64,000 nt of DNA, taken from NCBI RefSeq assembly GCF_000165425.1, contig NW_001799277.1:186001-250000 (forward strand). Direction: 5' to 3'. Of this stretch, positions 3,012 to 55,667 are shown one piece after another; position 1 is the first letter of the stretch; each line of letters starts with the position of its first letter. The translations under genes and the position numbers were made by a program. This DNA is from Paramecium tetraurelia. Taxonomy: Eukaryota > Ciliophora > Oligohymenophorea > Peniculida > Parameciidae. The notes below the pieces were generated by a model, which saw only the letters and a program-made list of their open reading frames with translations, searched no databases and had not been told where the DNA came from.

Positions 3012-3993
3012 ATGAATCCAGAAACAGAGTAATTGAACTACGATTTGGAAACTCCACAGATTCCTTATAATTATGATGTCGATGGTCGATTCTATTTGCC
3101 TGTGTCAAATCAAATCTATTAGAAAGTCTATAGTCAATACACTTACCATCCACCCACCTTTTTACTCATGCCACAATAACCAATCTATTAACCATGTCCT
3201 TAGGTGAAGAAACAAAAGAAGAAGAAGGTTAATAATAAAGAAGTTGAAGCACTCAGAGCAAGAATTATGGAATTGGAAATGAGATAACCAGAAGTAAAAA
3301 TAGTAAAAGAAGTTGTTACAGACACCGAATAAGTTTAAATATCACAATAATTATGTAGATAACCAGATTAGAAAAGGAATTACGTATGGTTAAGATGCAA
3401 TTAGAACACGAACATGAGAATAATGCATAAAAGGACAGGACTATTTCTGACCTTAGAGCTCAGATCTAAAAGAATGATTTATCCAGAAGCTCAAGTCTTG
3501 TTTCATTACAAACTACACTTGTTGAGAGAGAAGTATGAATATTCAAATTTATTCTTAGAGATAAATAACAAAGCAAGATGGAATCATTTCTTAACTCCAA
3601 GCTGAAATCAACCTTCTTAGAGGAGAATTAGACGATGCTCATCACCATATTGAAGAATTGTAAACCACACATGAAGAAGTAACAGTAGAAAAAATGACAT
3701 ATCTTTCAAAAGTAATTATTGTTTATTATTAACAATTAAGGAGGTAGAAACCTGGAAATAAAAATTCATTGTCCTCAATAGAGAGTATCACGAAACTCAA
3801 GAAAAGCTCATGTTGGCTGAAGCTGAATTAGAATCAATTAAGAAAGGAGAAGTTAAAGAAGTGAAAGTAATCTAACAATGTAATTTAGCAAATTGTTGTT
3901 GAAAGAAAGGATAATATAGGAAGAACAGTAGATTACAAATAATCTGAATAAGTTTAAGTTAGAAAGAGTGGATTTTTATAGACATTATAGTGA
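3012..3993 (+). CDS. Coiled-coil protein with Pro/Tyr-rich head, unknown function
   Basis: The start is the ATG at 3012 (MNPETEQLNYDLETPQIPYN). The first ~65 residues are rich in Tyr, Pro and Gln, then comes a basic patch (VKKQKKKKVNNKEVEALRA), and the rest is a Glu/Lys/Gln-rich coiled coil. It ends …RKSGFLQTLQ at the TGA 3991-3993. At least three small introns are needed: a 26-nt one near 3533, one near 3711 that seems to end AAG rather than TAG, and a 22-nt one near 3867. Length is roughly 290 residues. The general layout (short low-complexity head, charged coil, short tail) is seen in many ciliate cytoskeletal proteins, but I recognise no family and assign no function. Confidence 0.75.
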
Positions 3994-10193: not shown

Positions 10194-13100
10194 ATGATTG
10201 TTAGATTGATGATAAGTTTACTACTATTGCTTATGCAAACTTTAGTAGAAGGTTACAAATTAATTTATCTTTAGCCATGACGGACGCCTCAAGAGACACA
10301 ACAATAGATGCAGTTGTAATTCTGTCAGTTTCTACTGTCTTGGGGAAGGAGAAATCAAGCCCAATAGGTTCGTTGTTGGGAGGCACAACATTATATATGA
10401 AGGTAAAAATATCATTAAATAGACTAGGTATAAGGTTTGGATTAGACTGCAAGCAATAATGCAGTATATATTGGAAAGTATCCGTGCCTTATCTCAGATA
10501 AAGGTGTTAACGGATTGTTTATGAATTGTAAAACAACAAAACCTGATCCAAATGACCATAACTTATCAGGGTTAAAAATAGTTGTTAAGGTTTTGGATAA
10601 ACCAGACTCGGTTTGTACATACAGTAGTGGGTACTGCAAATTTACATACTCTGAGAATATGACGCCAAAATTATTTTAAGTTGTTCCAAGATCAAACCAC
10701 CCTAGAAGCCTAAGTTATTGGAGAGCCAAATGGACTGTATCTAGCAATGCAGTAGAGTATCTGGAAGGATAATTCATGGATGCTAATAGGTGTGATAGAT
10801 TCACAGTTTAAGATATGTATCCAAAAGAAATCAACCCATTGGATGACGGAGTAGTTTGTTAGGTTTCTGCTGAGATCAGGGCTGGATATTATGGTTACGT
10901 CATAAAATCATAAAGAGGCTATTAAAAGAATGATGTTGGAGTAAATTAGAAGAAGGTCCATTCTGATAGAACTTATGACTCAAAGTAATATTATATAATA
11001 ATAAAATTAGAGTAATCCCACTAATTACAGGTATCAGCACTAATTTTGCATCCCCTGAAGGACAGATACTAGAAATTGTAGGTCTTGGATTTAGTCCAAT
11101 TTCCTCTGAGAATTTTGTAAAAATCTCTGGATAATCTGAAAACATTAAAGTTTTGTCATCCTCCCCCACTAACATTATTGCAAAGATACCGAAGTTGGAA
11201 AACCTACCTAGATTATAGGATTCGACTGAAAATTCTTTATATTTACAAGGAAGTGGATTGCATTACACCAGATGGGATATTTCTGGTTTATCTCTTAATT
11301 GTCCATCTTTTAGATAGCAAATAATTACTGATAAGACTGTATGGAATAGCAGGATCAAATTTGATGGAATCTATCCTGAACCTGATGTTCATAATATTTT
11401 TGGAGAAAACTACGGGTAATATTTCAGAGGCTTCTTGAAGGCACCTTTTACAGCCAACTATAAATTCTATATCTCCTCAGACAATTGCGCTGAATTCTAC
11501 ATATAAACAGCTGAGAAACTAAAACCTATTAGACCTGATAGTCCAATTGTTTAAAGCAGTTGGAATCCTTACAAGAACTATTGGTATGAATACTTGAGTA
11601 CATCATCAGAGATCAAAACTATATCAGAGAATATTTCTTTGGAGGAAGGTTAAATGTATTATATTGAGGCTTATCATCTTAATGGGCCTTAAGAAGGTCA
11701 CCTAACAGTGTCGATGGAAATTGAAAGTGAAACTCGAAAAATCAATTCCCTTAATAGCATCTATCAAATATCCACTTCATACACTCCTATTAAAGAGGTG
11801 ATTGAGTTCTCCCTTTACAATTCAAATGCAAACACCCTATTAACAGGTAAATATAGACTTTAATTCACGTATGGAACTAAGACTTACCCTTAGACAGAAC
11901 TCTATTATTCCTATATTACAGTTGAATTATCATCAAATTCGTATGCAAATGCAATTAAAAATGCCATTCAGAATTGTGGCGCAAACTACCTCGTTACAGT
12001 AGCCCTCACAAAATTAGACAGCACCGGAAAGGAGTTAGAAGAAACTGCTACTACATTTGCTGGATATAAATACACAATTACATTTGATTCCTACAGAGGA
12101 GGAATACCTTACAGAGCACTCCCAAAAATGATATACGCAAATCTTAAAGGAGGTGTAGTGGGATCAAAGATAGAATGCACTCAATCTCCATCAGATCCAA
12201 TCAGTGGTACATTTTAATTGGCTATGACTATTAATGGCTAAGATAATTTATTCTAAACAGCTGAAAATAGTTATGAGTTGAATTTTAATACGGCAAGTGC
12301 AGTATTAGCTGACAATATTGAAAGGCTTACAGGTTATCGACCTTTGGTCTGGACTATAGGAAGAGCCTAAGACGGATGGAGTTGGTTTATAAAATTAAGG
12401 TCACATTCAGAAGATCTCAGTGATTTCAGAGTCTTAAACAATTAATTAGTATCAGGTAATGGCGATGTCACTATTACACTAACACAACCATTACCAAACA
12501 GCAACAACTTATTATTTGAGCCTATTCCTAATGAGTTATTGTTTACATATAGTGAAAATCCATAAGTTTAAGTTGAAGTTTAGTATCAATTAATTGAACA
12601 TGGAAGCGTGATAGAATCTGAATTAATACTAGCTGGATGTGCACAATAATCAGCTTGTGACTTAACTTTGAATGAAGAAAAGACACCATTAGTGACAGCC
12701 TATTCAATATCTGGATCTGTTCTATCTCTTACAATTGAGGAGGGAGTCGATTTGACAATAATTTCCAATGACCTAGTAATTCAATACTTAGGAGCAGATT
12801 GCAATAACATTTAAGTTACAAATGATGGATCACCATATACTATAACTTGTAATTTGGAGTAGTAGGATGGTAAAACAATTAAAGAAGCAGGAGATGGGTA
12901 ATTGCCAGTCGTTCATCATAAAGATATTGGATATTCAAAAATAGATTAAAGTCTAACAGTTGAAAATATAGATTTGAATATAATGTCAATCTCGCCTATT
13001 GCAGGATCTCCAGATGGAGGTACAACAATCACGATTGCAGGCACTGGTTTTCCAAAAAACTCAGATAGAGAATTCACATTCTAAATTGATGGTTAAAATG

Positions 13101-16100
13101 TTAAGCCATTATCAATAACAAACAATTAATTAGTCTTCATTACTCCTAAAAAAGTAAATGGAGGAACTGGAAGTATTTCCCTTTCGTTTAATACAAAAAC
13201 AGCAACAAGCACATTGACCTATGATGATTCATTAAGGATTCAAGTTACTGGTTTAGAGTTTAACTCAAAATCACCAGTATTCAGAGGTGAAATGAAAATC
13301 ACAGGAGTTAATTTTGGAACAGTTAAAGAGGATATTAAAGTTACATTGGTAGGAAATAAATCCTATAATGCTAAGGTATTATCAGTCACTGATTCCTAAA
13401 TTACAGTTTATTTGAGAGGAGGAATGCCTGGTAATTATAGAGTTATTGTTACAAAAAAGAATTTTGGTGATTCCTATTCAAATAACGATGATAATTTATT
13501 TAAATACATAATCCCAATTAATAGTGTGACTTTAGAAGATGGAACTAGTTAGGCAAAAGGATCAGAAGCAGGAGGAACTGTTATTAAGATTACTGGATCA
13601 CATTTTGTAAAAGGAGAAACTCTTGTGTATATTGGTAGAGCTGTGAATTGGTTATGTGAAATAGATGAAACTAGGTTTACCAGTGAAACCATATATTGTA
13701 CTGTTCCAGCAAAATACGAATTGTATACTGAAGAACCTCAATTAGTACTTGTAACTTTACAAATAACACTTGAATCAACTTGTTTCGATAGTATCAATAA
13801 TTGTTTATTTACTTATGAAAATTAATTGACTCCAAAACTTGAAGCATATCCTGAATCTGTTACTTAATACTCAGGGTCAAGAATATTAACAGAAGAGGAT
13901 CATTCAAAACCAGATTATTATAAGCTGATATAAAGGAAGAGATTCTTATGGACAGATGAATCAAAAAAACATGGTCACAATCACATTTTGAATGTTGGCA
14001 AATCTTCAAGGAGAGATATGCTCACATCTACAGATTTGGTTTTGACTCAGTAAAAAACATATAAACCAGGGGATCTAGAAACATTATCAGGAATTGGATT
14101 AACATCAAGTGTCTCAGTTGTATTCAAAGGTCCTGTGACATAGACAGTGGCTGCCACTGTAGATGATAATACTATCACTTATACAATTCCAAATCTACCA
14201 TAAGGATACTATTCTACTTACATATTAACTTAAACTGGTTATGCTGATAAGATATGGGTTAGTATAATTGAATTAAGCGTTACAAGTATTGACAATGCTG
14301 CAATTGGAGGATAGATATTAACAATAAATGGTGCAGGATTTAATGCTAATTAAAATCCAATTGTTAAAGTTGGATCTACCACATGCACTGAGTTGTAAGT
14401 AATCTCCAGTGTATAAATTAAATGCAGAATGGCAAGATAATCAGGAACTTCAGCAGTAGTCACTCTAACTTAATCACCTTCTGAGAGTAATTCTGCTACT
14501 CCTTATACAGTTGAATATACAATAGCCATTTATCCAACTTCAAGTTCCCCTCTTATCACATCTATTAGTGGTGTTACCTATGATAGTACTTAGAAGGCTA
14601 ACAAAATGACAACAGGGGATGTTATTTTAGTATTCACAGGTAGTAATCTATCTGGTACTAATATTCTGGCAACATTGGAACACATGAATCGTAAGATTAT
14701 TGGCACAGTTTCAGCATTGTCTGATACATCAGTAACAGCAACATTTACAAGTGTACCAATAGGAGTTTATTCAATACAATTACTATTGGATAATAAGTAT
14801 GCCTATCATAATGATGCTAATAAATAGAAATTAATTATTAGTGCATCTCAACCAACCTCAAATAATCCTATAGTATCTTATGCAGGTGGTGCCACAATCA
14901 CATTCACTGGCACTGGATTTGATACTTAAACAGAATTCAGCTCTGTTTAAGTATGTGGATTCAATTGTCCTATTACTAGTTCATCATACACAAGTCTCTC
15001 TTGCGAAGCCCCTAAATTGTTGACAACTTCAGTGTTACAACAATATACGGCACTCCAGGAACCTCCTAGATATATTAAACTATCTGAAGTTCAATTATTA
15101 GCTGACACAATCCCCTTAGCATAGACATTCTTTGATCTGCAATAATCAACCTATTATGTTTCGAGTGCTGCTTCTAATTGCTTCTTGTAAGTTGACTTTG
15201 GTTCAAGTAGAAACTTGAAATTGAATCAATTGAGATATTTACCTAGAATTGATGTAGAAGCCATTTATTTGAAAGGAGCTGTTTTTTAATATACTTTAGA
15301 TGGTTCGATTTGGGTGGATTTCTTAACAATCGATTAATCAGTTCATACTGGGTGGAATATCTATGTTCCTTCAGGTGATATTTCTGGAATTAAGGCTATT
15401 AGACTATTTGATTCAAGAGGAACTACAGGTTCATAATGTTAATTGGCTGAAATTGAAATCAAAGGATGGGTACTATCAAACAGTAAAAATGCCTATTCGG
15501 TCCCAACTCCTTGTAATGCAGATCTCCAAGTAAATGGATAATCGATAGGTACAATACTCAATGCTGTCAGTTATTCATCAAGTAGTGTTCCCATGGTTAA
15601 CACAGTAAGTCCAAAGACAGGTAGTTTTACAGAATAGGCTATCATTACTATAACTGGAACAGGATTTGTAAATGGATAAACATAAGTTGCAATTGATGGA
15701 GTGAGTTGTGTTATTCAAAGTGTAACCTAAACTGAAATCATATGTAAGACAGGTGTGAAAGATTTAGAATAAACTTAATTGAATGGAGTATTTTAAGTGA
15801 GAGTTAATGGAAATCTAGCAGTGAACAATTAATAATTCATGTATGCTACTAAGTGGTCAGATATTAATACTTGGGGAGGATATGAGTATCCAGGTGATGG
15901 AGATTCAGTTATTGTCAATGCAGGATAAACATTAATTGTTGATGTTAAAACACCTAAATTGATGTAGTTGTTAGTGGAAGGCACATTAACATTTTCAGAT
16001 GAACTTGATACTTCGATTGATGCTCATTACATTGTTATTAGAGAGGGTAAATTCAATATTGGAACTGAACTGATAGCCCATTAACATAAAGTCTAAATCA

Positions 16101-19100
16101 CTTTGTATGGTGATGAATAAGATGTCTAAATGCCTGAGATGGGTAATAAAGTGCTAGGATGTCATTAATGCCAATTAATCATACATGGAAAAGAAAGAAC
16201 ACCAACTTGGACATTATTATCTAGTACAGCATTAGCTGGAGCTACATAAATTACAGTAGATGATCCAGTAGATTGGTAAATTGGAGAATAGATAGTGATA
16301 ACTTCAAGTGAAGTCTAACATTTGTAAAGTGAAAAAAGGTATATAGTATCTGTGAGTGACGATAAAAAGACTTTGCATCTCGATTATCCTCTTCTGTACA
16401 AACATTATTCAGCAATTGAGACTTATGGAGATGAACAATTCCCCATGAAAGTTGAAGTGGGATTGTTGACTAGAAATATTGTTATACAAGGAGAACAATC
16501 AAGTGTGAAATATGGGTATCATTTGATGATTCATGGAAGAGCTGAAAAAGGTGCTGTAGGCAAAATTTCATATGCAGAATTCAGATATGGTGGATAGCCT
16601 AAAATTATTGGTAGATATCCAGTTCATTTTCATTTGAATGGTGAAATAGATAACTCTTATGTTGTTGGTAATTCAATTCATGATTGCTACGCTCGTTGTG
16701 TGACTATTCATGGTGTACATTACTTGAAGGTTTAGAAGAATGTATGCTATAATACCTTTGGACACGCTATTTTCCTAGAAGATGGTATTGAGACAAATAA
16801 TGTAATTGAAGACAATCTTGTTGCAGGCACTAAATAAAGTTGGATAATGTTGCAAACAGATATTACTGTCTCTACTTTTTGGGTGACAAATCCATAAAAC
16901 ATACTAAGAAGAAATAGATCAGGAGGATCTGAATGGTACGGGTTTTGGTATGAAATCAAAACTAATCCAGATGGACCTTCAGCTACTTCAGACATTTGTC
17001 CACCTGGTCTAAGCATGCTTGAGTTTAAAGATAATTGGTCACACTCTAATGGCAGATTTGGTCTTCGTATTTTCTAAATGGCTCCCAGGTAGTATCCTTG
17101 TATGGATTTGGCAAATTGGGCCAATGATTAACCCTACATTGATAATCCCAGCATTCAATCCGTTTTTGAAACGTTCCGCACATGGAAGAATAATGAATGT
17201 GGAATTCTGGGCGAAGAATTAGGGAATATTTACTTCAAAGATATCATGATTGCAGAATCCAAATTTGCAGGTTTCTAATCCCATAGAACTAATCATTCTG
17301 ATGAAGGAGCTGTTTTAGATAATGCTTTGATTGTTGGAAAATCAATAAACAATGCATATTCAGATGCGTACTATGAAGGATCCAGAGCCTTGGTTGTACC
17401 AAGAACAAATGGATTCTTGGCTAAAAATATCAGAATGTACAATTTTGGAAGCAATACTGCTTTGATCGAGTCTTGTTCGATGTGTTGGCATGATTTCGTT
17501 TGGGTTCAAGGTGGTAAGAATACTCATTTCTTTAACGTAAAAGCATACAATTCAAATTCAGCTAAGAGAATATATTGGTAGAGACATAGAAGAGAAATAT
17601 TCTGGGATATAGATGGCTCAATCACAAATGTAGATGGAGGTGCATACATTATTCCGTATAAGAAACATATTGATGGGATTCCAGGATGTGTTACTCATCC
17701 AGAAGAATATTGGGATAATTCTATCATCTGCGCAATGAATTAAGTTACAATAAGGGATGTATTAATTAATAATCCAACTCCAGAATAAGACTTCAGTGGA
17801 GTGGATCTAAAAATCTATAGACTTGATGATTCTAATATTGAAACTAAAATGGACTAATCTATAGATGAAGCCAAATATATAGAGGCTGAAACTATGATGG
17901 TCATTAAATCAGGTAGTAAGGATGTTCCTAAATCATTTGTTAGTATCTTTGCTACTGGATTCACATACAATGTTCATTTTAAGCTTGGAGCTAGTGATCC
18001 TTTGAGTATGGGTATCTTTGCATCACCTTACTTTAAGGAGGCAGATAATGCTGTGGTGTTAAGGTTTAATTATTCTACAAATAGAGAGACTTTCGATATT
18101 ATGAGACATATTGAAAAATAATTCCCTTTAAATTACACTAAATTAAATTAGAAACCTAATACTCATGTGTGTAATCAAGGTGATTGGTATAATGATAAAA
18201 CAAATAAATTATTCTTCATATGCTTATCTGGTAAAAACAAGAAAAAATATGAGTATGTTGAAGTAAGGGGAGTGATATGCAGAGATGAATGCAGTTCATT
18301 AGGAGATGTAAAATAAGAGGATGGGTATAGATATTGGAGTGATCCCAATACTTGGATTGACAATAAAGTTCCAGTCGAAGGTGATAATCCAATAGTATAA
18401 GCAGCATATTAAGTTATTTTGGATGTTGATACACCAAAGTTGGCTAATTTAACAATTTTAGGAACTCTGATTTTTGATGAAAGAAGAGCATCGACTAAGT
18501 TGGAGGCGGAGAGAATATGGGTAAGATCAGGTAAGCTATTGGCAGGTAATTCCACTCATCCATTTCCTGGTAAAATTAATATCATTTTGAATGGGGAGTT
18601 TGGTGATAATCCATTAATTATTGATTCAAAATTGGATGTCGGAAACAAAGTATTGGCTGTTACAAAAGCCTTGGAATTATATTCGACACCTCCAAGAACA
18701 GTTTGGACTAGACTAGCTGTTTATGCTGATGCTGGAACTACTGAGATTCAAGTTATAGAATGCAGTGATTGGGCAATAGGAGATGAAATTATATTTGGTC
18801 CATCAGGAACTAATCCAGATTAGAGAGAGAAGAGAAAGATTCAGTCTATTTAAGGATGTGTCATCAAATTGGATTAAGCACTTGAGTTTGATCATTATGG
18901 AGCTCCTTAAGTGACTCTGGATAAGGGAGATGTTGGTTAATTAGATATGAGAGCTGTAGTAGGTCATTTGACTAGAAAGATTAAGATTGAAGGAGGACCT
19001 AGTGTACACGGTTTAGGATGTAGAGTTTTGATTTACTAATTTGAGGAACCAGAAGCAAATTTAGGATACCCAAGGAGAGGTTACACCGTATTACATGGAG

Positions 19101-21327
19101 TTGAATTTAATAATTGTGGTTAATTTGATACTTAAAGAAGTGGACTGGATTTTAGGAACCTTAAAAGTTAAATCATTAAGACTCCAAGTGAAGTTATTGG
19201 GTGTTCATTCCATGATACCACAGGTATGTTGATGACAATACAGGACTCATAATATATTACAATCAAGAATAATATATTCTTTAATGGAATTAAAGCTTTG
19301 GTTTAGATTAATAACAGTCAATATGTGAAGTTTTAAGGGAATGCTATGGTTTATGTGAAGAAAAGGATGGTTTAGGAGTTTGAAGGAGGTATTGCAAATT
19401 GGGCTGTATTTGGAAATTTCATCTATATGGATGAATATATACCAACTCGAATGACAAGGGATATCCTTGATATATCTGGTAATGTAGGATAAGGGTCACA
19501 AGACACAGGATTCTTTGTTATGGGTCATAAATGTAGTGATGCTTAAATATCTTCATTCTATAATAATCACTGTTCTGGAACTGTGTTGGTTTGTTTTGCA
19601 GTCAGATAGGTGTCTAGCAAATGTACATATATGTCAGGTCTTTATGCTCATCATAGTGAAGGAGGAATAATGTTAGCGGTTTAAACTGAATAAGTATAAC
19701 TGGAAAATACCATAGTTGCTGAAAATAATAGAAGCATTGTATTAAAATTGGGTTCATGGAACTATTATGATAATACCATTAAGCTTAATAAACTCTTCAT
19801 CTCTGCTTTAGTTAGACCTGATTGTGTTAAATGCTATTCGAGTTCTCTTAGTCCTCATTGCAAAGATTCCTTCGGTATTTAAATGGGTACTGTCTCCACT
19901 ACAGCCTTCCCTCCAATTAATAGTCCCATTTCTTCAGAATTCGATATTATTTGTACATCCTAAAAGATTGATCTTAAAGTTTATTTAACAAATGTGGAAT
20001 TCCACAATTTTAGACTCACTTATGACAACTTACCCTAATGTGGTGAAAATGCAGCCTTCAGATAACATAAAGGAGCACATGACATGTCAGGATAACATTA
20101 CCTAGTTAATTCTCCATGTACAAATTGCTAGTTTGAAGCCCTTTTATACAAGTCATTAGGATTTGAAGTGAGAAAATTAGGATGGTTTGGAGGTTGTGGT
20201 TCATTTGGTTGTTCAGGATTAACCAATTACTTGATTGAGGATTAAACTGGACATTTCTTTGGATCAATCGGTCAAGGCATTGGAAATAATACTTATTTTG
20301 GACCCAATGTTACATATTGTACTAGATAAGAGTCATGGAACGGATATTGGTGTCCTGGTAGAAAGATTACAACCTTGGGCTTTATGAGCACTGCTCCTGA
20401 CTACAAGAAGAGATTGTATTCACCAATTAAATTAACTGACGGAGAATTCTTTAATGAAATGAATAGTTAAATGGAGTGGGCTTGGCTGGGATCAGAACCT
20501 TTGAATTTAAGAGAATCTAAATTCGTTGCTCTTATAGCTACAAACACCATAATCAACATGACCAATGCAGGAACCAATCCGACTTCATCAGAGTATTAAA
20601 TGTCTAAAAGAAGAGAAGATGGTAGTCCAGAAGATTTTGTTATTTTAATGTGGCAATTCTAAGTGCCCTAATTTATTTAAGTTTTTGTTGATAACAAAGT
20701 CATTCAACCTGGATTAACAACTCATTCTAAGCATCATGATCTATTGAAAATGACTGATCAATGTGGTGCTAATAATTATTTCTATGAAAATAGAACCATC
20801 CATTTTGTTGTAAACGGATAATTAGGCTGTAGAGTTAAAATTGCACTTAAAAACACCCTCTAAATATCCACTAGGTTAGAATTGTCTACTGAAGAATTCT
20901 ATGGTGATAAGTTCTTATAATATGCTAGAGCATAATTAGGAGGAGACCCTTATAACTACTTTATCATAGGTATAAAGAAATAAACCAGAAGATTCTTGGA
21001 ACAAAGTGTTAGCTATTAAGTCTCAGTTGAATGGGGTATTGTTGATAGTGCAGAAATCGGATCAGAATAATCATCCAATTCTAAGACAACCTTAGAAGAA
21101 TTTGCTAGTAAATTAGAGTTTTTGAATCCACCCCCTGAAATTGGTAAGATTCTGGAATTGAGTTCATCCTTATCGGTTATTGATAAATTGAATTTCCCAT
21201 CTACTGAGCCAACTTCAGGTATAATTATATATATATTAATTTAGCTTCTCCATAAGGATCTAATACAAACAATTAAAGTAATGGAAATACTAATTCAGGT
21301 TAAGATTAATCATCAGGAAATAGCAAC

Positions 21328-21389
<62 letters not shown>

Positions 21390-21702
21390 TAACAATTAAA
21401 ATGATACTGATATATTATTTACAACAGATGAGTTAGTTAATTAAGGAGATTCTAAGGATGATTCTAATTAAGAAGATATTGGAACAGTTACAAAATCTTT
21501 TAGCAAAGGAGATCCTTAATCTAATACAGTCATTATTGTTGTTTCTGTTATTTGTTCTGTAGTAGGCATCTCGCTTTTGATTGCTGGTTTGTTATATTAT
21601 AAAAAAGTTAAATTGGCCAAACTAATTGCTTCAAGAAATTAAAGAGTTGATAATGAATTTTTCAAAATCAATCTCACAGAACAATAATTGCAAGCATAAT
21701 GA
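10194..21702 (+). CDS. Giant PKHD1L1/fibrocystin-L-like surface protein
   Basis: The product is about 3,800 residues. It opens with a signal peptide (MIVRLMISLLLLLMQTLVEG). In order it then shows an early IPT/TIG repeat (SPIGSLLGGTTLYM), a PA14 domain near nt 11340-11520 (FDGIYPEPDVHN, FYISSDNCAEFYI), and several more IPT/TIG repeats between nt 12990 and 15850 (SPIAGSPDGGTTITIAGTGF, SPKTGSFTEQAIITITGTGF). A discoidin-like segment interrupts the IPT series at 15080-15470. Next come a G8 domain (15855-16060, starting WSDINTWGGYEYPGDGDSV) with beta-helix repeats, and a second G8 domain (18325-18600, WSDPNTWIDNKVPVEGDN) with its own beta-helix region. After a 24-Asn run there is one membrane segment (VIIVVSVICSVVGISLLIAG) and a ~35-residue basic tail. 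This order is that of the vertebrate PKHD1L1 family. Introns include 10985-11010 and ~21220-21245 (26 nt each). The first intron appears to start GTT. It is probably an extracellular, sugar- or matrix-binding coat protein on the plasma or ciliary membrane. Confidence 0.9.
21325..21396 (+). repeat. AAT microsatellite coding 24 asparagines
   Basis: An almost pure AAT repeat with a few AAC codons encodes 24 consecutive Asn in the stalk just before the membrane segment of the giant surface protein. It is in frame and should vary in length between strains. Confidence 0.9.
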
Positions 21703-24529: not shown

Positions 24530-25715
24530 ATGTAAAAATTAGCCATCTTGGCATTAGTTCTTGCTATCACAGCTGCTAAGTTTGTTGATATTCATACTAG
24601 CTTGGCTTAAATTAATACTGATCCATTTGGACATGTCGTATTGTCAGCTATTAAGGCTCACCTTCTTGCTTAAACTCCAGCCAATGAAGTTAACATGTTA
24701 TTAAATGGTGTTGGTGCTGGTATTGTTCAAGACTAAAACGATCATGATCATGCATTTGAACTTGATACAACTACAAACAATAGAGTAATGATTTGTGTAA
24801 TATTCAGATTGTTGAAGATTTAGAGAAAGAGATCTTATATCATCAAAATCAAATTGCCTCCAACACCTAATTGAGAGACGATACTATTGAAGCATTGGCA
24901 GTCTCAGAAGAAGACATCAGAGTTACTATTGCAGATATTGCTAACAACGAAGCTACCTATGCTAGAGAAGAAGCCACAAGAAATTAATAACATGAAACCT
25001 TTGTTGCTAAAGTCGCTGCCATTGATGATGTTATTGATGCTATTGATGATGCTGCTAAATTGATCTAACATTTAAGTCTTGGAGCCTCATTTGCCTAATT
25101 AAAGAGCAAATACGACACTCTTCACAAGAAGCTTTCAGATAACACTAGTCACAGTGCTTTATTACAAGTATTTAAATAGTGAATACATCTATAGCCAGTC
25201 ATCACTGCTCTTACAGAACTTGCTACTCACGGAGTCAACCAAAAGGCTTTGACTAAGATTGCTTAACTTTTGAGTGAAATTAGACAATAATTAGTCAGCG
25301 AGAAAGCAGCCAAGACTGTATATATTAATTCTTAATAATTAAGGATGTTGAAGATAGATAAGCTGCACATTGGGCTGAATTCTCTGTCCATTTGGCTAAT
25401 GAACACACCAGATTAGTTGAAAGAAAGGCTTAATTGGAAGTCCAAATCTAAGAATAAAAAGATACAATTGAAGATGCCTAATCATGGATCGAATTCCACA
25501 CCTTGGAATTAGAAAACAGTGAAGAAAGACTTGCCGGACAAGAAGCATGGTATGCTGTTTAATCCCAAATCTATGAAACATAAACTGCTGAAAGGTATGA
25601 TATTTTATAATAATAATCTTATAGAGAAGCCCAATAAGAAATAGTTGACAGACTCTAAGAACACATTAGTGAAAAATTGTCAACCACCGCACAATTCATT
25701 GCCAGCAGAAACTGA
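24530..25715 (+). CDS. Trichocyst matrix protein (TMP family)
   Basis: The start MQKLAILALVLAITAAKFVD is a signal peptide, needed for entry into the secretory pathway. The mature part is a long acidic Ala/Glu/Gln coiled coil (EDIRVTIADIANNEATYARE, AGQEAWYAVQSQIYE) typical of Paramecium trichocyst matrix proteins. These are made as precursors, cut by proteases and packed as a crystal that springs out on exocytosis. At least three tiny introns interrupt it. It ends …AQFIASRN at the TGA 25713-25715, about 370 residues. Two more TMP genes lie in this window (34539 and 39430), in the same orientation but well separated. The family assignment is strong; the T1/T2/T4 subgroup cannot be named by eye. 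Confidence 0.88.
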
Positions 25716-25833
25716 TTTCATTAACCAATAATATCAATTATCATTAACATCCTTCCAAACTAATTATTAAATATTAGCTATTCAATTTTCTTAAATAATT
25801 TTAATTTTTATACTCTAGATATCAATCATTTAT

Positions 25834-28800
25834 ATGCCTTCAACCCTAAAACCCTGGATAAGATAAATATTGTTGATGCTTTCTCACTTCCTTACCTTAG
25901 AATATAACTCATCAAAGTTAATTCATATGCTCATCCTCTTCTATTAAATTATTCAGCCTACTTCTTTCATATTTTATAATGCGCAACCTTAACAGGAACA
26001 ATTAAATCACAGTCTAACCAAAATTACTCTCATTACTAGACTGTATGTATACATTACTGACCCAATAGTCAAATAATCAATATTTTGGATTATGGTTTTT
26101 GTGCAGAATATCATAATTCTAATTGCAGCAATCATGGCATTTACAAATTACTACTCAAATCACACTCAATCTTAAATTGGATAGATAATTGCTACTGTTT
26201 TCTCTACCTTTGTCTATTATGTTTCAATAACATTCTATCCAATCATTTTGGAAATTAGCCTATGTTATTCCTCTAACCTAGTAGAATTTATTGTTGCTAC
26301 ATTACTTATGATTGAAACTCTTAGTATTATGTTTATGGGTGAACTCATATTTAGAAGAGGATTAACACTTAAGTCAACATCGAATTTATATATCAACATT
26401 TCAACATACTCATACATAATAAAAACTTTCAAAATATCTTAAATCCTCCTATTCTATTACCTAAACTCACAAACGCTGTTTCCTCTCACAATCCAATGCA
26501 TCCTAAATATCTTAATCTAAATAAGCTTTGTAACCGAATTATGCAAAATGAAGGTGTATGCTTATCACATCTATTCCAAAGCTGCTCTAATTCTAAGTTC
26601 CATTAGCATAGTATTATCATTTGAAGTCTTATTGACTTAAACTACTATCAGTAACAATTATTGGATATTAGTTTCACTTATTCTAATTAAAATATTATTT
26701 ATCTGTGATAATTATATGCCTAATTCTATTCAAAATTTTGAAATTCATCAATTAAAATATTAATTTGCTTAATTAGAACTAAGCAACCCAGAAACTACAT
26801 CCACTAAATTACGTACATACATCCTTTGCAGAAGTCATTATTAAACCTGTGATAAGAGATCATATTGCATATGTGTATCAAGTAAAGAATACTCAAAAAA
26901 CCATTACTAAACTGTGCTTAAACTAATTGAAACAAGGTTGGAATAAAAGTTTTTTGGAAGAGTTGAAAGTTCTAAAGATTCATTAGCTATTGATTATGCT
27001 CAAACGTTGCTCAAAAATCAATAATTAGTTAAAGTATAATAGCACATTATTAGATGTCTTTCTCTTAATTAGTCCATATATCCACAAAATAGGTAAAGAT
27101 TCTCTGCTATTACCACTTTACTGTTGGAATTTTTAAAAGAATAAGTCCTAAATTAAGTGCTTATTTAAATATCTGAAAATATTGGATCTAATATATAACA
27201 TAATAAAATTATAACAGACTCTTTAAAGTCCTTTGTACTTAATGAAAGCACAGATTAATAAATTATTCAACAAATGAAAAAGATCATAGCTGCTAAAATT
27301 TAATTTTACAATAATTTCTTGGAACATCAAAATCAAAATTATGGAAGTGTTCAATTCGCCATTCAATTCATAAAATAGATCAAATAGTTCAAAGATGTTC
27401 TATAAAGTAGATATGAGTAATTTCCAAGTAACTATCATTATATTATTTAAAGCCATTTCTAATCAAAATTTACTGAAGTACTTTTGTCTGAATATCTTAA
27501 ATGATTACATAGAAGCATTCAACATAAACAAATGTAAAGCTTTCGATGATGATAAATATAACACATTTCAAGGATAAATTTACCATAAAATATTTGGTAT
27601 TAATCCTGCATATTTCATTACTGAACTTACATCTGATTTGGATGTTCTTATAACCAAAAAATCAAGTCAAGCAATCTCTATTTTAGAATCTTTAAAAATA
27701 AATTAATCAAAGGCTCATCAAAATAACGAAATTAACGTTTTCTTGCCAGAATATGTAATAGCCTTTCACCGTCAACTTGTAGAATCTTTTTTAAATAACG
27801 GTAAAAATAAATATTATCAATAATAAAACCTAGCCTTTCTTAAAATACAAGACAAAGTGATGTTACCCATTTAAATTATGGTTAGCATCAATCATACAAC
27901 TACTGACAAATTCTCATTTATTATATTCTTTTATGATAGTCAAGAATACCGATCCTATTTGGCTGTTGATAATTAACTAGAAATTATTAATATAAGTTCA
28001 GATATTTAGGATAGTCTATTTTTTAGTGAAACTAAATAACCTTAAACTTCAATATCAAAAATTATACCAAACTTTTAGCAAATTATTTCCTCCTCCCAAG
28101 ATATTTTCTTAAATTAAGAAATTAAATTATTAAAAGATTATCATAACCAACAAGGATTCTTTTTTTATAATGCAAATGTCAAGATTGAAAAGAAATTTCA
28201 TAATTAATTTTAATGTTATTTAGTTGAATTAGATAATATTAGGCCTATTTCGAGAAAATTAAGAGAGGAAACTTCAACCGTTTATAGAACTTCTACTTCT
28301 CAGTTTCCCTGTTCTACCTAAAAAATATTGAATATTAACAGTGAAGTGGATTATTCATGTGAAAAAATGATTCCGTATTCAGATACGGACAACAGAATCA
28401 ATCCTGAAGGCTCATTGTGTGTATTATAGCAGGATCCTCAAATTATATATAATACAGAAATGAATGCTATGGGTACATAATAGTTGATGGATTATTATAA
28501 AATCTAAAATATGTTTGAGCCATTATCATAAAATAGAATGATACACAGTTCTAGATTTTCTTAGGATGATGATTTAAAAAAATAAATGAATAAAATAGTT
28601 CATGAGGAAGAAATCAATGAAATTGGTTCTACATCTTCAATAACTGCAATAAAAAAATCAAAATATTATAAAAAGTTTGAGATTATCTCTGTTTTGATGA
28701 AATCTGAAAAGCAATCAAAGAAAATAATTTAAATGAATAAATTTATTGCACTCTACATATCAATCATCTTGGTTGGTCTCATTATAGTATAATTAAATTG

Positions 28801-30620: not shown

Positions 30621-33600
30621 TCACTTTTTCAATATTGAATTCAACAAGTACTATTTATTGCCCCCACTAATTCCATAAATTAAACATTGTGCTAAGTCGA
30701 AAAATCTAATAAATTTTTTTTTTCTTTAAAGTAAACAATTAAGTCCTTCACTTGATTTAAAGGTTGCTTTGCTTAATCCAAGCTTATTTACATACTTTTA
30801 TAATCTTCTTATAAATAAGTTAGATTTTTTTCTTTTACAATATTTTCCTATCTTAACTTAAAAAGTTCTGCTTGTAAATTTTAGGATTATTTTTCAAAGT
30901 CAGTATTACTTTTTTTCAGTTGATCAATTTCCGTTTGTTTCTGATTTTTTACAACCAAACTATCTTATTAAAACTTTTGAAAGCTTAATTTTAGATCATC
31001 ATATTCTTTTTGTTTTGTAGCAATTTTCGCCTCACTTTCTTTCTAAAATTTTTTTAAATTTTCATTAAGTTAATCATATTCTATTTGTTTTGCTGTTTTT
31101 TCAGCCAAACTTTCTTATTAAAATTTTTGAAAGCTTAATTTTAATTCATCATATTCTTTTTGTTTTGTAACATTTTTAGCCTCACTTTCTTTCTAAAACT
31201 TTTTTAAATTTTCATTAAGTTAATCATATTCTATTTGTTTTGCTGTTTTTTCAGCCATGCTTTCTTATTAAAATTTTTGAAAGCTTAATTATAGATCATC
31301 ATATTCTTTTTGTTTTGTAACATTTTTAGCCTCACTTTCTTTCTAAAACTTTTTTAAATTTTCATTAAGTTAATCATATTCTATTTGTTTTGCTGTTTTT
31401 TCAGCCAAACTTTCTTATTAAAACTTTTGAAAGCTTAATTTTAGTTCATCATATTCTTTTTATTTTGTATCGTTTTCAGCCTAACTTTCTTTATAAAACT
31501 TTTATAAGTTTTCATTTAGTTAATCAGATTCTTTTTGTTTTGCTATTTTTTCAAAACTTTCTTATTAAAACTTTTGTAAATTTTATTCTAGCTAAATCAG
31601 AGTTTAGCTTTATTAATTAAAATGCTTCTTAAAAATCTCTTGCTCCTACTAAAACTTTTGGAGTTACATATTAATTTGATGAATAATTTACCCCTCCTTA
31701 TTTTGTAAATCATTTTCATCTTTTTAAAGATTTTAATTATCAGAAGAAATGATGGTTTCATCATCATTTTTCTTTGATCCTTAATTGTTTATTCTTTGTT
31801 CATTTGTGTTTTATTGTTATGTATCTATTAACTATGATTCCTATATACTCTATTATTACTCCTCTTAGCATTATTATTAAGCATCGTTTTCAATTGATCT
31901 TTAATTACTTATCATTTGTTCATTTGTGCTTTATATTTCATTTTCCTTTAGAGTTTCAGTATTATTTTACTTTTATTCATCCTAGTCTTGTTGTTAATTA
32001 TTGATGTAGTTTTTATCTAATCCTTAATTGTTACTTAAGTTTGACTCTTCGAAATTCTATTATTAAATAGCAATATTTTTATTATTGATCTCATTTGAAG
32101 GGTACATATTTTGGTGCATTATCTCATTTTATTATTAACATTCTTGAATTTTATTTAGGTTGTTCTATTGAATTGTCAAAAATTGATCATCAAAATATTT
32201 CTTCTAATTTTCTAACAAATTTTAATTAATGTTTTCTAATTGGCTTTTATATTCTTCAATTTATTTTTTAAAATACTCTATTAACCTATCTTCTATATAA
32301 TTTTAGATATTGGGATTTATTATAGTTTCTTATTATTTGCATTATTATCCATTTATATTCAAAATGCTTTTTTCTAACTTGATTTCAAATTCTTATTACT
32401 ATTTTTGTAATTATGTTAAAAAATCATTTACTCTTTACTCTAATGGCTTATTCTCATTAGATTATTATTAACTTTAATTTTATTAAGATACTATTAGTTA
32501 ATTTTTTAATTATAAATTTTCTGATATAGAGCCTTCTATATTATTTATTTTATTTTTAATCTAGGATTCAAAATCTTTTTATTAATTTTATAATTAAATT
32601 TAAGCAGAATTCAATCTTTCTTCCATTTACTTTTTCTCATTACTTTATTATTCAACTTATTATTTTAAAGATACTATTAGTTAATCTTTGGATAATAACT
32701 TTTCTGCAATAGAGTTTTCTATATTACTTATTTTATTTTAAATCTTGGATTCAAAATCTTTTTATTAATTTTATTATTTAATTAAAGCAGAAGCCAAGTT
32801 TGCTTCCATTTACTTTTTCTCATTAATTTATTATTAAATTTATTTTTTTTATGATTCTATTTATTCATCTTTTTCTAATAGTTATTTTGTAATTTTAATT
32901 TCTAATTCAGAATATTTTCCTTCTAATTATTTCTATAAAGAATCAAATTATGGTTGTGTTTGTTGTAAATGTGACTTTATAAGAGTGTCCATTTTATTCT
33001 AGAATTCTAAATTAAACTATTATTAATTTTTATTTGTTTTGTCCATTTCTTAATATTTGTTATTTAATTGGCTTAATTCAACTTTCAAGGATTCTATTTA
33101 TTTATCAAATAATTCTTATTCACCTTCTGAAATTTATTAAATACCATTCCCAAATTATTATTCTAAATTTTTTTAATTTTTTTCTAAAATTTTAATTCTT
33201 TCAAAAATTCTTAAGATCTCAGCTTTTTCTTGAAGGCATGATTGCAATTCATTATAAACCTATTGAATTGTTGGTCGCTTAGCTTCCTCAAATGACAACA
33301 TATTAATTATAAGTTTTTTTATTTTTTCTGAAGTCTACAATTTATTAATTTTCTCATTTAGGTAACTTGGAAACTTACCATGATTTGTGATTTATGAGGT
33401 TACTTATTGGAAATTTTCTCCTAAAATTATAAAATATAATACCATCAATTAATGACTTAGATGTTAATACTTCATAAAAAACGCATGCCAATGACCAAAT
33501 GTCAATTTTATCAGTGTACTTATTGCTATTTTATATGATTTCTGGTGCTTAAAAGATTAAAGAGCCAACTTGCATTGTTTTTAAATCTGCAGGGTTTGAA

Positions 33601-34153
33601 CCCCTAACCCAACCAAAGTCAATTAACTTAAAAGTGTCCCCTACTAAGATGTAATTTTCTGGTTTAATATCTCGATGGATTTGTTTAACTTTATTATGTA
33701 AAAATAGTATTGGTTGAGTAATCTATTATGAAATTAAAATCTATTTACTTGAATCAAAACTTATTCTTTCTCTTCTTAAGCTATCTTGTTGGAAGTTATT
33801 TAATCATATAAACTTTTTTAACCAACTTCCATTACGATGCAATGGCATTACTACCATTCGAAATATTCATATATTTAGATTATGTTACTGGGAAGTTAAC
33901 TTTTATCGTTTCCCTTTTCATAGATCTATTGGTATTTTATTAATTATTGAATAAAATTGCTCTCATTGACTTTCATCTATTTTTGTACCTTGAGTGCAAA
34001 TTATTTAGAATTATCTCCCGGTCCTTATGCGATTGCAATATATACTGCTCCTTCTGTGCCAGATCCAAGAGGCTTAATTAATTTAAACACTCTATTTGGA
34101 AATTCGTTTGTCCTGGCGTCTATAACTTTATTGGTGAGTCCTTGAATATTCAT
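30621..34153 (-). CDS. Ser/Thr protein kinase with tandem coiled-coil repeats
   Basis: The kinase domain begins almost at the N-terminus. It has the glycine loop GSGTEGAVYIA, FALK (ATP lysine), [20 protein letters not shown] (the DFG is intact), FQAPEIIQN and KIDIWSLACVFYE. A 26-nt intron near 33725 interrupts the N-lobe/C-lobe link. After the domain come roughly 800 residues of Gln/Asn/Lys/Glu-rich coiled coil. These contain two copies of a 61-residue unit and then four copies of a 50-residue unit. The protein closes …YLLNSILKK at the TGA 30621-30623. Catalytic residues are all present. It is related to the kinase at 4051 and has a broken paralogue at 8680-9190. The long repeated tail suggests a structural or multimerising role, possibly at the cytoskeleton; that is inference. 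Confidence 0.88.
30950..31570 (-). repeat. About four tandem copies of a 150-bp (50-residue) unit in a kinase gene
   Basis: Landmarks such as tgttttgta recur at 31011, 31161 and 31311, with a variant at 31461, exactly 150 bases apart. Each unit codes for a 50-residue coiled-coil block that is itself two related 25-residue halves: KQKEYDDLKLSFQKFQQES… and KQIEYDQLNENLKKFQKES…. The middle copies are nearly identical in DNA, so they expanded recently. Unit length is a multiple of three, so copy-number change keeps the frame. Confidence 0.93.
32540..32880 (-). repeat. Two imperfect copies of a 183-bp (61-residue) unit in the same kinase gene
   Basis: The string attcaaaatctttttattaa begins at 32566 and again at 32749, 183 bases later, with clearly similar flanks. 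This is an older, more diverged in-frame duplication in the coiled-coil tail, closer to the kinase domain than the 150-bp array. Confidence 0.75.
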
Positions 34154-43774: not shown

Positions 43775-46700
43775 ATGCTGCCATTTGGGTACATTGTTTT
43801 GTAATATTTAGTTTTTAGTGATTTAAATACTTCGAATTTGAAAAACAGCAGAGGTGTAGTACAAAAAAGTAGAAGTGCAAGAAATTTATGGTAAAATGAT
43901 CAGAAGAGTCCCAGAGCAAATGTGCAATAGAGAAAGTAGTTATAAAACATTGATATGTTAGAACGAGAAAAAAGAGTACTTTCAAGTTTGAAAATGTGCA
44001 TGATAACATCATTCAAATTTAATTGGCTTCAGATGAGAGCTATGAAATGGATATCAACGAAGAGATAGAAATTGATAAAAAAGCTATGTCCAGAGGTCTG
44101 CAAAACGAATTTAGTCCTGATAAAAGGAAAACCTTTAGAGCTAAGCAATTTCAGATTTATAAAACTCTTCAAGAATACATGGATGAGGAGTTGATTGAAG
44201 AAGATAGAGAGGATATTCAAGAACAGACTCCAACTCCTATCTAGAGACAAAATCAAAAAATAACTCCTGAAGAGATCATATTTTAAAAGAATTTATAAAT
44301 CCCAGATATTATATCTGAATTTACGAAATTGTATGAATCTGATCCTCACAATGACAATTACAATCTCTAATTATTGCATGTAGAAGGATGGGAAGAAATA
44401 TGGCTAAACCATTAATTCTATAAGGATGCATATATATTACTATGGTTAAGAAAGTTAATTGTGACATTTTTTAATTCAATATCTTTGATTTGTTATAAAA
44501 TTACCACCAACATAGTGTCAAATTTTATAATGCTTCTATTAGTGTCAATAAATATGGTGTTATACATAACCAAATTTTATGATGATGTCTATACTCAATA
44601 CAAACAATTATTTGATGGATGGTCATTAAGTAATAAATGTTCAATTATAATAGTCTTCTTTTGGATTTATGTTGTAGAACATGGCATAAAGATAGTTGGA
44701 TTAGGATTAGTTTAGTTTTTTAAGGTATTCTGGAATTGTTATGATTTGGTCAATGTAAAAATTATAAAAATTTTATATAGCTAATTCTCTTTGGATTGTA
44801 TATTTATGGAAGTTTATCATTTGATTTTTCTCCCTTGAGAGCTATGAGAATATTGATTTAGTTAGCAAAGATTTCATCACAATTATAAAAAACATTGAAG
44901 GCATTAACTGAATCATTAAAGAATATGATGGAGGCATCATTGGTTGTCTTGATTTTTTGTATATTCTTTGCTAATGTTGGTGTTCATTTATTCAGTCAAT
45001 TATTATAGAATAGATGCTTTTACATTGAGGATGGGATTTAGGATTTCAATTAAAATATTTGTGGTTGGGTGGATTGTCCTAATAATATGAATTGCTTTTA
45101 GTCTTTGAATAATGTGGATACTGCTACTAATTTTGATAATTTCTTTTTCGCCTTTGCTTAAATCATTCGTACAATTACTATGGACAATTGGACTGATGTT
45201 ATGTATTATACTATGTATACATTAAGTCCTATGACATGGATTTATTTCGTTCTTGTCATTTTTATAGTAGGTATGAAATAGCAATATTTTTTTAGGTTTT
45301 TTTGCATTTAATCTAATTATTGCTGTTTTGAAAACATAATATTCACAAATTGTATCCAATTATTAAGAAGACAAAGAAGATTTATCAAATAAATAAACTT
45401 ACATAGAACCATTAAACCTAAGATTTATAAAAAATATAGGATTGTACAATTAAATAAAAACATTATAAAAAGTACGAAAGAGAGCCTCTCAACAATCACT
45501 TTCTCAAAGTCATGTTTCTTAGAATAAGTCAATTGATAATTAAATATTTTCACCAAAAGGAAGTCAATTGATACAAAAATCTAAAGTAATTTCCTAATTC
45601 ACGGGTGGATTTGGCTAAATCAACAAATTGTAAAAAATGGTGAGGAGAGCCAAAACAATAAAAGAAAAGAAGAAATAACAAAGGTTGATTCTGTCAGCAA
45701 GATAACAGAAATTGCTGTAGAAAAGAGAGAATGAGGAGATGGGCATAATGAATAGCAATGAATAAAGCATTTTTGATAAGTTTAACTTAAAAGCCATTTT
45801 GTAACCACAAAGAAATTTTAACATTGAATAATCAAAATATGAATAAACTGTATAAGGGGATATAAAGGGGAAAAAGATACTGATGAGTTTAAAATACAAT
45901 GATGTTTTGGCATGGAAATTGGATCTGAAGTATTCACCCTACCATTCAACATCCAAAAGAGATGTAATAAGCGAACTCAAGGAGATATTGTAGAAAGAGA
46001 AAAAATTGAAAGAGTAGTATGAAAAGGTTAAAAGACAAAATCTGAAATAATATTATATGTTAGACATCTATGATAAGTAAAGGGAGAAGATATCATAGTA
46101 ATTGTAGTCTTCTGATAATGGAAATCCATCTATTCAAAGACTCTACAGTATAAAATATGATATAAATACAAAAAATAGAGACCAACCTATTACATCTAAA
46201 TTGAAATTGAAATTCCCAATCAAATCAAGTAGAAGAATCTTTGGATCTGAATTAAATATGGGTGATTCAAATAATGAAATTCCTACTAATAAGTCATCCA
46301 TTACTCGGAAATCATATTACGATCATTTAAGAAAGCAAAGGCTGTTTTTTCAGAGATCTCAAACTAAAATGCACAGGGCAAGTTCAGATGCCTTTATGGA
46401 ATTTCCAGAATGGCAGGAAGGGCAATCTTATATCACAATAAATGGTATCAAGTGGAATCATGATGCTTGTTCTATTTTGATTAATAGGAAGATTAATGAG
46501 TTGGATGAAGATGATGATAATGATGATTCAGATGATGATCGAATTTTAAAATTAGATTGGATGGATCAAAATTATGAGCACTATATCCAAATTAGAGTAA
46601 TAAATTTAATTTATTATAGAAAAAAGAATTAGAGTAAGGCTTTATAAGAAGACACAATATCTCGATGCTCAACATCATGAATAATTTAACAAAAAATAAA

Positions 46701-54600: not shown

Positions 54601-55493
54601 TCTTGAATTTCCTTTCTGTAATTTATGCCTTCCTCCAATTTTATCTTCTTGTGTTTTTTGTTGATTAAATCATTCAACTCTTTGAAGTATTTGGATGTTA
54701 AGAGAGGATTGTGAAAACTCTGAATCACTCCATAAGGGTTCTCCACTATTTCCTCTTGGCATAGGATTGTGTAATTGTCTTTGCTCTCGTTCTATAACTT
54801 AGTATAGAGTGACAGTCTTTTCTCGAGACTCTTCAGACACTTCTATTTCTTGAAGGAGTCCAAGATAATCTCTGAGTCCTTATTTAATTGCAAATGCTCT
54901 CTTATTTATTGATCAGTCAAAACAGAAAAATTCTACATCAAAGAGTCGTAGTAATCGCTATCAAAGGATTTACTCTTCTTATATTTGTACAGAATGTCAT
55001 TTATTACTTTATCATAAATCATTTTAACATCTTCACTTGCAGCATAATAAAAATCAGAAAATGCATACACAGGATACTTAACATTTTGGGACTAACGAGT
55101 ATTATTGGTTTATCCTGATGACAAACTATTTCTTAAGTCTATTTAACGTAAAAATGTTCTCAATTAAGAGTAGTTTCTCAAATGTTAATTTTAATCTGTA
55201 TCAGAAGACAAGTTAAAATTCTATAGATTGGGTTCATTGATCCTGAGATTCTACCTTTACCCAATTCTCTTCTACTCTACTTCACTTGCTTCTTCTTCTT
55301 CCTCCTCGTCATCACTTGTTTCCTCATATTGTCCTTATGGTCTGAATCCTGCAATTAATGCATCACAGTCTAAAATATCCTTGAAGTATCGCATTGCAAA
55401 ATTTAAATCCAAGCTGCTCTTATCCCTTTAATTCATTTCATTCACATCTTCAAATTAGGCGAATAAAATATCTAAAAGTGCCTCGTTTAACAT
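51653..55493 (-). CDS. TAF1: TFIID subunit TAF1
   Basis: About 1,260 residues. Starts MLNEALLDILFAQFEDVNEM with an acidic segment (SDDEEEEEASEVE). The centre carries the TAF1-specific DUF3591 region: GNFILMEYIEQRPLLLNNTG followed by GMCSKVTRYVYP, then APIFKQKLPATDFLLVRT and NCHYKYTLRPIDCIYLVG, and further on YGIGDPTSGHGGLNYIKKP and GTENDLRKLHVEDIQN. Each matches the corresponding human and yeast blocks in order. The C-terminal ~200 residues are a Lys-rich coiled coil with no bromodomain, the condition found in yeast rather than animals. TAF1 scaffolds TFIID and contacts TBP and core promoter DNA. Several small introns occur. The gene ends at the TGA 51653-51655. Confidence 0.93.
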
Positions 55494-55667
55494 TATTTAT
55501 TAAAATAATTACAAATTATATATATATAAATTATTCACAAATTTAAGTCCATAGCTTATTCTCCTCATTGACTTCTCTGTATTATTGCCAAAATGATAGG
55601 AAATATCACAAAAATCATCTCACATCTTTTACTCATTTAAAGAGTGTAATTTAATTTCCTAATTCAT

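Follow-up and report, generated by a model that had tools for sequence, protein, structure and literature searches.

A complete gene for a predicted PKHD1L1-type surface protein in the ciliate Paramecium tetraurelia

PKHD1L1 (fibrocystin-L) has been described as a protein of 4,249 residues with a signal sequence, 13 IPT domains, two G8 domains, at least 12 PbH1 repeats, one membrane helix and an 8-residue tail (PMC6707252), and the number of its IPT domains is given as 14 elsewhere (PMC11043200). It is required for the stereocilia coat of hair cells (PMC11043200). Variants of its paralogue PKHD1, the gene of fibrocystin, lead to recessive polycystic kidney disease (PMC13424714), and PKHD1 has been reported chiefly from terrestrial vertebrates. 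According to a 2026 review, putative orthologues are already reported from green algae to vertebrates, those of single-celled organisms with reference to Bannell and Cockburn 2024 (PMC13424714). Here, a window of 64,000 nucleotides of the Paramecium tetraurelia genome (the whole stretch of DNA that was analysed; contig NW_001799277.1, here C165, positions 186001-250000) was found to contain a single intact gene at 10194-21702 (+) encoding a protein of 3,802 residues in the ciliate code. The predicted protein is of the PKHD1L1 type in kind and order of its domains; its membership is judged by architecture and spacing as well as by fold and site, and not by a tree.

The spliced gene comprises 3,803 codons including the stop. 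It contains 151 TAA or TAG codons read as glutamine, and the sole in-frame TGA is the stop codon, while the remaining five frames of the main exon carry 54-169 TGA stops each. A chance open reading frame (ORF) was ruled out on the basis of this difference. Translation of the whole window with table 11 gave no ORF of at least 200 aa. Glutamine encoded by TAA and TAG, TGA as sole stop and introns of 23-26 nt are consistent with Paramecium. The intron positions were compared with the models of five paralogous genes (A to E). Intron 1 (phase 1) is also present in B, C and D, and intron 2 was found at the same place in the models of A, B, D and E, while seven additional residues are read at this place in the model of C. 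Intron 3 recurs in the models of B, C, D and E, and intron 4 in those of A, B, C and D. The signal-peptide exon with its phase-1 intron could be constructed in all three close paralogues (B, C and D), which differ in their DNA; in each case it was taken as the most hydrophobic candidate listed upstream of the ATG used in the first models. Paralogue A has a signal peptide of its own. Hydropathy analysis of the whole protein revealed two hydrophobic stretches only, at residues 1-21 and 3741-3770.

The domain architecture was established by Pfam and hydropathy (Table 1). The order is signal peptide, IPT domains with PA14, IPT array, G8, beta-helix, G8, beta-helix, one C-terminal membrane helix and a tail of 32 residues. 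In the main exon (matches to E 1), two G8 domains (1.6e-62), seven TIG stretches (8.7e-62), two CEMIP_beta-hel domains (4.5e-58) and Beta_helix were recognised. On exon pieces, seven TIG domains were placed over the cut-off, one was weak and one further stretch was counted without position. The IPT1-2-like region had no Pfam match, and a PDB search with exon 2 returned weak matches only (best E 1). The gene limits given in the initial annotation proved to be exact at both ends, the gene being complete, and the domain order that it proposed, including two G8 domains and a single membrane helix, was borne out by Pfam and hydropathy. The profile search that it suggested returned the two G8 domains on which its reading depends, together with the TIG array, CEMIP_beta-hel twice and Beta_helix, PA14 being weak in the window copy.

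PA14 is over the cut-off in paralogues A (38.6 bits) and E (36.6), and all six copies match it at E<=0.1. A six-copy profile of the segment, when searched against the PDB, found the PA14 structure 6qdi (4.5e-07) and CEA1 5a3l (0.0015). A domain resembling F5/8 type C, located between IPT domains, had been overlooked in the initial annotation. It is over the cut-off in paralogue A (33.4 vs 28.2 bits) and is not listed for E. A low-confidence model of this region (mean pLDDT 55.1) matches CBM62, CBM32 and F5/8C structures as well as plexin IPT domains. Close to the membrane, the 24 Asn codons at 21325-21396 constitute an AAT microsatellite within the coding sequence; the juxtamembrane stretches of paralogues B, C and D are Asn-rich too, but different.

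Table 1. Features of the gene and of the predicted protein (positions in the window; bit scores refer to Pfam).
Feature	Position	Strand	Basis
Whole gene, four introns of 23-26 nt	10194..21702	+	introns 10252-10274, 10403-10427, 10985-11010, 21219-21244
Signal peptide, residues 1-20, split by intron 1	10194..10276	+	hydropathy; equivalent exon in B, C, D
IPT1-2-like region, limits approximate	10310..10984	+	putative; GGT-type IPT signature by eye, and position
IPT/TIG immediately upstream of PA14	11018..11200	+	TIG 23.9 bits, cut-off 20.9
PA14/GLEYA-like domain	11423..11719	+	13.6 bits (full exon), 19.1 (shorter piece), cut-off 24
IPT/TIG	12977..13216	+	57.4 bits
IPT/TIG	13289..13507	+	40.5 bits
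IPT/TIG	13553..13771	+	30.9 bits
Weak IPT/TIG-like	14069..14233	+	14.8 bits, below cut-off
IPT/TIG	14276..14509	+	41.2 bits
IPT/TIG	14876..15028	+	42.6 bits; piece 14579-15000 counts two stretches, the second without position
F5/8 type C (CBM32-like) domain	15140..15349	+	19.6-23.7 bits, cut-off 28.2
Last IPT/TIG upstream of G8	15590..15754	+	39.7 bits
G8 domain 1	15869..16222	+	E 5.5e-30, genome search
CEMIP/TMEM2-type beta-helix 1	16511..17065	+	PF24606 E 1.3e-50; TMEM2 4.3e-41 by sequence, 1.9e-33 by fold
Candidate site His2120, His2122 (HFH), His2148, His2166, Glu2171, Asp2172	16625..16783	+	conservation
G8 domain 2	18350..18718	+	E 1.4e-27
Beta-helix 2, part recognised, candidate site absent	19088..19363	+	PF24606 26.5 bits (cut-off 27.3); Beta_helix 28.6, over cut-off
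24-residue Asn run, juxtamembrane, AAT repeat	21325..21396	+	coding sequence
Transmembrane helix, then 32-residue tail	21514..21603	+	hydropathy 2.99 over 19 residues

The arrangement was compared with the domain table of human fibrocystin, where an IPT domain (258-355) and PA14 (322-485) are followed by the next IPT domain at 945, by G8 domains at 1932 and 2740 with PbH1 repeats after each, and by a membrane helix at 3859-3881 (PMC13424714). The same features start in the ciliate protein at residues 251 (IPT), 386 (PA14), 904 (next IPT), 1868 and 2695 (G8) and 3741 (membrane helix). All nine features compared occur in the same order, with starts that differ by 7-203 residues, most for the last IPT domain. 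In both proteins, PA14 is followed by approximately 420-460 residues without named domains. The likeness to fibrocystin thus covers IPT with PA14, the gap, the IPT array, the G8-PbH1 pair present twice and the membrane helix, whereas the cytoplasmic tail is of 192 residues in fibrocystin and of 32 in the ciliate protein, and the SEA domain listed near the membrane of fibrocystin (PMC13424714) was not found in the ciliate segments searched with Pfam. From the descriptions consulted, this domain is not known to be a defining feature of PKHD1L1.

With PKHD1L1 the ciliate protein shares the signal peptide, the IPT array, two G8 domains, PbH1 repeats, the single membrane helix and a short tail (PMC6707252), and it keeps the equivalent of His2479 (PMC11043200). 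The two differ in the number of IPT domains (7 over the cut-off, or up to 9 including weak ones, vs 13-14), in length (3,802 vs 4,249 residues) and in the tail (32 vs 8-9 residues), and the F5/8C-like module of the ciliate protein is unlisted in those parts of the PKHD1L1 descriptions that were examined. A PA14 domain beside an N-terminal IPT domain is also present in PKHD1L1.

The first G8 and beta-helix unit (unit 1) has human TMEM2 as its best relative by sequence in the PDB (8c6i, 4.3e-41). A model of unit 1 built from 22 sequences (pLDDT 79.3, pTM 0.83) matched TMEM2 with an E value of 1.9e-33 and a TM-score of 0.77 over the query, and the next fold matches, to capsule depolymerases and polysaccharide lyases, had TM-scores of 0.31 at most. 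Helix 1 is predicted to fold like human TMEM2, and it carries a conserved candidate His/acid site. In the TMEM2 construct, 23 vector residues precede residue 106, so that chain residue 470 corresponds to His552, the second histidine of GRYPVHFHL; the unpaired Cys554 two places further on agrees with this numbering. His552 has been aligned with His2479 of PKHD1L1, called nickel-binding and altered in one deaf family, the same patient also carrying a MYO7A variant (PMC11043200). Via TMEM2 His552, the ciliate equivalent of PKHD1L1 His2479 is His2122.

All site residues are retained in TMEM2 and in four of the six ciliate copies, namely the window copy (W), B, C and D. Paralogue A has NFN, Q and QN at site positions and keeps the GH histidine, while in E the first histidine alone is kept among the site residues. 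The site was further compared in 70 ORFs with a length of 800 aa or more, of which 66 lie on prokaryote contigs and 4 on viral contigs. Both histidines of HFH, the histidine of IHG and the glutamate of FLEDG were found in 70/70, the aspartate in 68/70 and the GH histidine in 67/70, a conservation which is partly due to selection since the loci were fetched by patterns overlapping the site motifs, one of two patterns being sufficient per locus. The likeness to the TMEM2/CEMIP proteins, compared here by way of TMEM2, lies in G8 with the CEMIP beta-helix and in the conserved HxH and ED motifs. TMEM2, in contrast, has one unit, a lectin-like insert (chain ~166-338) and no IPT or PA14 named, while the ciliate protein lacks the insert and has two units and IPT domains. 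As the crystallised TMEM2 ectodomain starts at residue 106, the membrane part of TMEM2 is presumably N-terminal. Given the missing insert, the two units and the IPT array, a protein of CEMIP/TMEM2 type was rejected.

Units 1 and 2 are homologous (hhalign 99.9%; 31% identity in an alignment of 357 columns), and in the same alignment all six site residues are replaced in unit 2. The profile of unit 2 also found TMEM2 in the PDB (4.2e-04). No relatives were revealed when viral contigs were scanned with this unit.

The genome (69 Mb, 231 contigs) was searched exon by exon, so that the counts of G8 and PF24606 matches are lower bounds. The 12 G8 matches all belong to genes with two G8 domains, six in number, and these six genes also account for the seven PF24606 matches; no single-unit gene resembling CEMIP or TMEM2 was seen among the 12 G8 matches. 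Protein identity to W is 74% for B, 72% for C, 75% for D, 43% for A and 36% for E. For W against B, C and D, dN/dS was 0.13-0.14 with dS of 1.3-1.4, while dS between B and D was 0.25. The frames are open in W, A and E. In B, C and D, the number of frame breaks depends on the intron model: 4, 10 and 4, respectively, with strict introns (and one in-frame TGA in C), and 1, 1 and 0 with lax introns. These breaks possibly reflect decay or assembly errors.

Relatives of helix 1 were also looked for in prokaryote and viral contigs. When the whole unit-1 alignment was used to scan genome and viral contigs, none came up, perhaps because the patterns fell in variable places. A core alignment including TMEM2 was successful: of 233 candidate stretches in prokaryote contigs, 163 were relatives. 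The best 80 of the 163 (78 loci) and four from viral contigs were analysed. Their ORFs are closed at both ends in 67 of 82 cases, with 820-1060 aa, and 15 run off the contig. Ten of them were scanned for domains (seven prokaryote, three from viral contigs), and all ten displayed one G8, one CEMIP helix and neither TIG nor PA14; an SLH domain was present in one. The bacterial single-unit proteins thus resemble the ciliate protein in G8, CEMIP helix and site residues, whereas the latter has two units as well as IPT and PA14. Two proteins of 1,012 and 1,016 aa with G8 and CEMIP helix, each encoded on a viral contig (L097, L098), sit together on one long branch close to a Chloroflexota protein. 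A lone bacterial-type adhesin was rejected as an identity for the ciliate protein, as the scanned relatives are single-unit proteins without TIG or PA14.

A helix-1 tree was computed from 31 rows and 384 columns with the six ciliate copies, TMEM2 and bacteria; it was rooted at midpoint and contains several long branches. The 31 rows are a selection from 77, without the two branches of greatest length (L099, L100) and without many of the closely related bacterial sequences. In both the 31-row tree (100/100) and the 77-row tree (100), a single clade unites the six ciliate copies. TMEM2 joins the actinobacterial L042 (95/86) in the 31-row tree, and for the same rows the AU test did not reject a tree that holds the ciliate copies and TMEM2 together (p 0.237).

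Four other ORFs of the window were noted. The 719-aa ORF at 25345-27501 has no Pfam match and 21 matches in the genome including itself, 10 of which are N-terminal pieces of approximately 85-150 residues with one or two internal TGA; this ORF is predicted to be a repeated family or element. The 1,170-aa ORF at 30641-34153 (-) contains 152 TAA/TAG glutamine codons and matches no Pfam family at E<=0.001. A DUF3591 ORF at 52140-55568 (-), which we take to be TAF1-like, has an 83% copy on contig C42, and an Ion_trans channel ORF at 46665-48215 has an 88% copy on C42 and 60 more matches in the genome. Contig C42 also carries paralogues B and D. These shared copies suggest that C165 and C42 arose as a pair in a whole-genome duplication.

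Taken together, the Pfam architecture, the spacing relative to human fibrocystin, the TMEM2 fold, the conservation of the site, the folds of the carbohydrate modules and the low dN/dS to the close paralogues suggest that the gene probably encodes a type I surface glycoprotein of the PKHD1L1 kind. It is most likely a surface-coat protein which binds, and possibly processes, polysaccharide. The IPT array would form a long stalk rising from the membrane of the cell or of a cilium, and PA14 and the F5/8C module would bind glycans. Helix 1 would hold, and may cleave in a metal-dependent manner, an acidic polysaccharide of the own coat or of the surroundings. A binding or structural role may fall to unit 2 and to the two paralogues that lack the site. 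For fibrocystin, hyaluronidase-like activity as well as binding of carbohydrate has already been suggested (PMC13424714). A bolder proposal would be that the fibrocystin family began with a surface enzyme, a metal-dependent, polysaccharide-processing beta-helix on an IPT stalk, complete before the split of ciliates and animals. The four site-intact ciliate copies would then be an enzyme-like clade retained next to two site-less copies, and vertebrate PKHD1L1, whose His2479 is linked to deafness, may be an enzyme of the stereocilia coat; this is offered very tentatively and is on the whole unlikely.

Several observations weigh against this interpretation. In the window copy, PA14 and F5/8C lie below the Pfam cut-offs. 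None of the six ciliate segments searched for the SEA domain matches any Pfam family at E<=1, the segment from A lying mostly upstream. For paralogue E, the gene models established no signal peptide. The dS of about 1.4 between W and B, C or D is near saturation, and these three were read across frame breaks; dN/dS is higher for W against A (0.30) and E (0.46). The PDB searches returned no animal PKHD1, PKHD1L1 or CEMIP, TMEM2 being the sole animal member, so the tree lacks these proteins. In the available text of the TMEM2 structure paper, a search found neither 'nickel' nor 'metal ion' (PMC10206443), the nickel site being named by PMC11043200. The same structure paper detected no hyaluronidase activity of the TMEM2 ectodomain and assigned no active site (PMC10206443), while the activity is robust according to another study (PMC10474455). 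As the activity of TMEM2 is disputed, catalysis by the ciliate helix 1 is put forward as a hypothesis.

The inactive ectodomain of that one study (PMC10206443) would also suit a purely structural coat or adhesion protein of the same architecture, in which the beta-helices bind or space without any chemistry. Such a protein is a possibility to be reckoned with, though rather unlikely: unit 2 is recognisable as a G8-helix unit despite having no site, and paralogues A and E are site-less with intact frames, but the site residues are kept in W, B, C and D, as in the fetched single-unit ORFs. A ciliate-specific surface protein with a digestive or mating-related role, instead of a coat protein, is quite unlikely; lectin-like modules with a polysaccharide-enzyme fold, whose matches include capsule depolymerases, would suit the digestion of bacterial capsules or cell recognition.

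The PKHD1L1-like order could also be convergent, if an ancestor of the ciliates had joined IPT repeats to a G8-helix protein of bacterial type. Bacterial relatives of helix 1 are indeed common (163/233 stretches) and resemble the ciliate copy a little more (up to 38%) than TMEM2 does (34%). However, order and spacing agree with human fibrocystin, down to the IPT domain beside PA14 and the gap of ~420-460 residues, and none of the 10 scanned ORFs has two units or IPT. The collinearity with human fibrocystin lowered the probability of such an independent assembly from quite unlikely to very unlikely. With respect to the initial annotation, its PKHD1L1 reading stands as regards the full PKHD1L1-type order, the two G8 domains and a domain spacing as in fibrocystin, while its suggestion that the protein may have been acquired whole found no support. 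The grouping with bacterial-type adhesins that it named as the contrary outcome was not seen, all ten scanned relatives having one G8 without TIG or PA14 and 67/82 ORFs measuring 820-1060 aa.

No description of a ciliate PKHD1L1-like protein was found among the listed open-licence literature matches, as judged from title and start of abstract. In the available text, PMC12029339 contains no family terms and PMC12223298 none of use. PMC8535419 and PMC4588038 cover PKD1/PKD2, and a text search of the parts available did not find fibrocystin. In PMC3556005, as far as available, fibrocystin is mentioned just for its ciliary targeting signal. Such proteins being already reported from single-celled eukaryotes, the present finding adds a tractable ciliate to the range of a known family. 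The ciliate family may show the original function. The four site-intact and two site-less copies provide a natural comparison, by which an enzyme and a structural coat are separable in one organism. Silencing by RNAi works for Paramecium genes (PMC3556005), and applied to this family it could read out effects on coat, adhesion, swimming and polysaccharide turnover.

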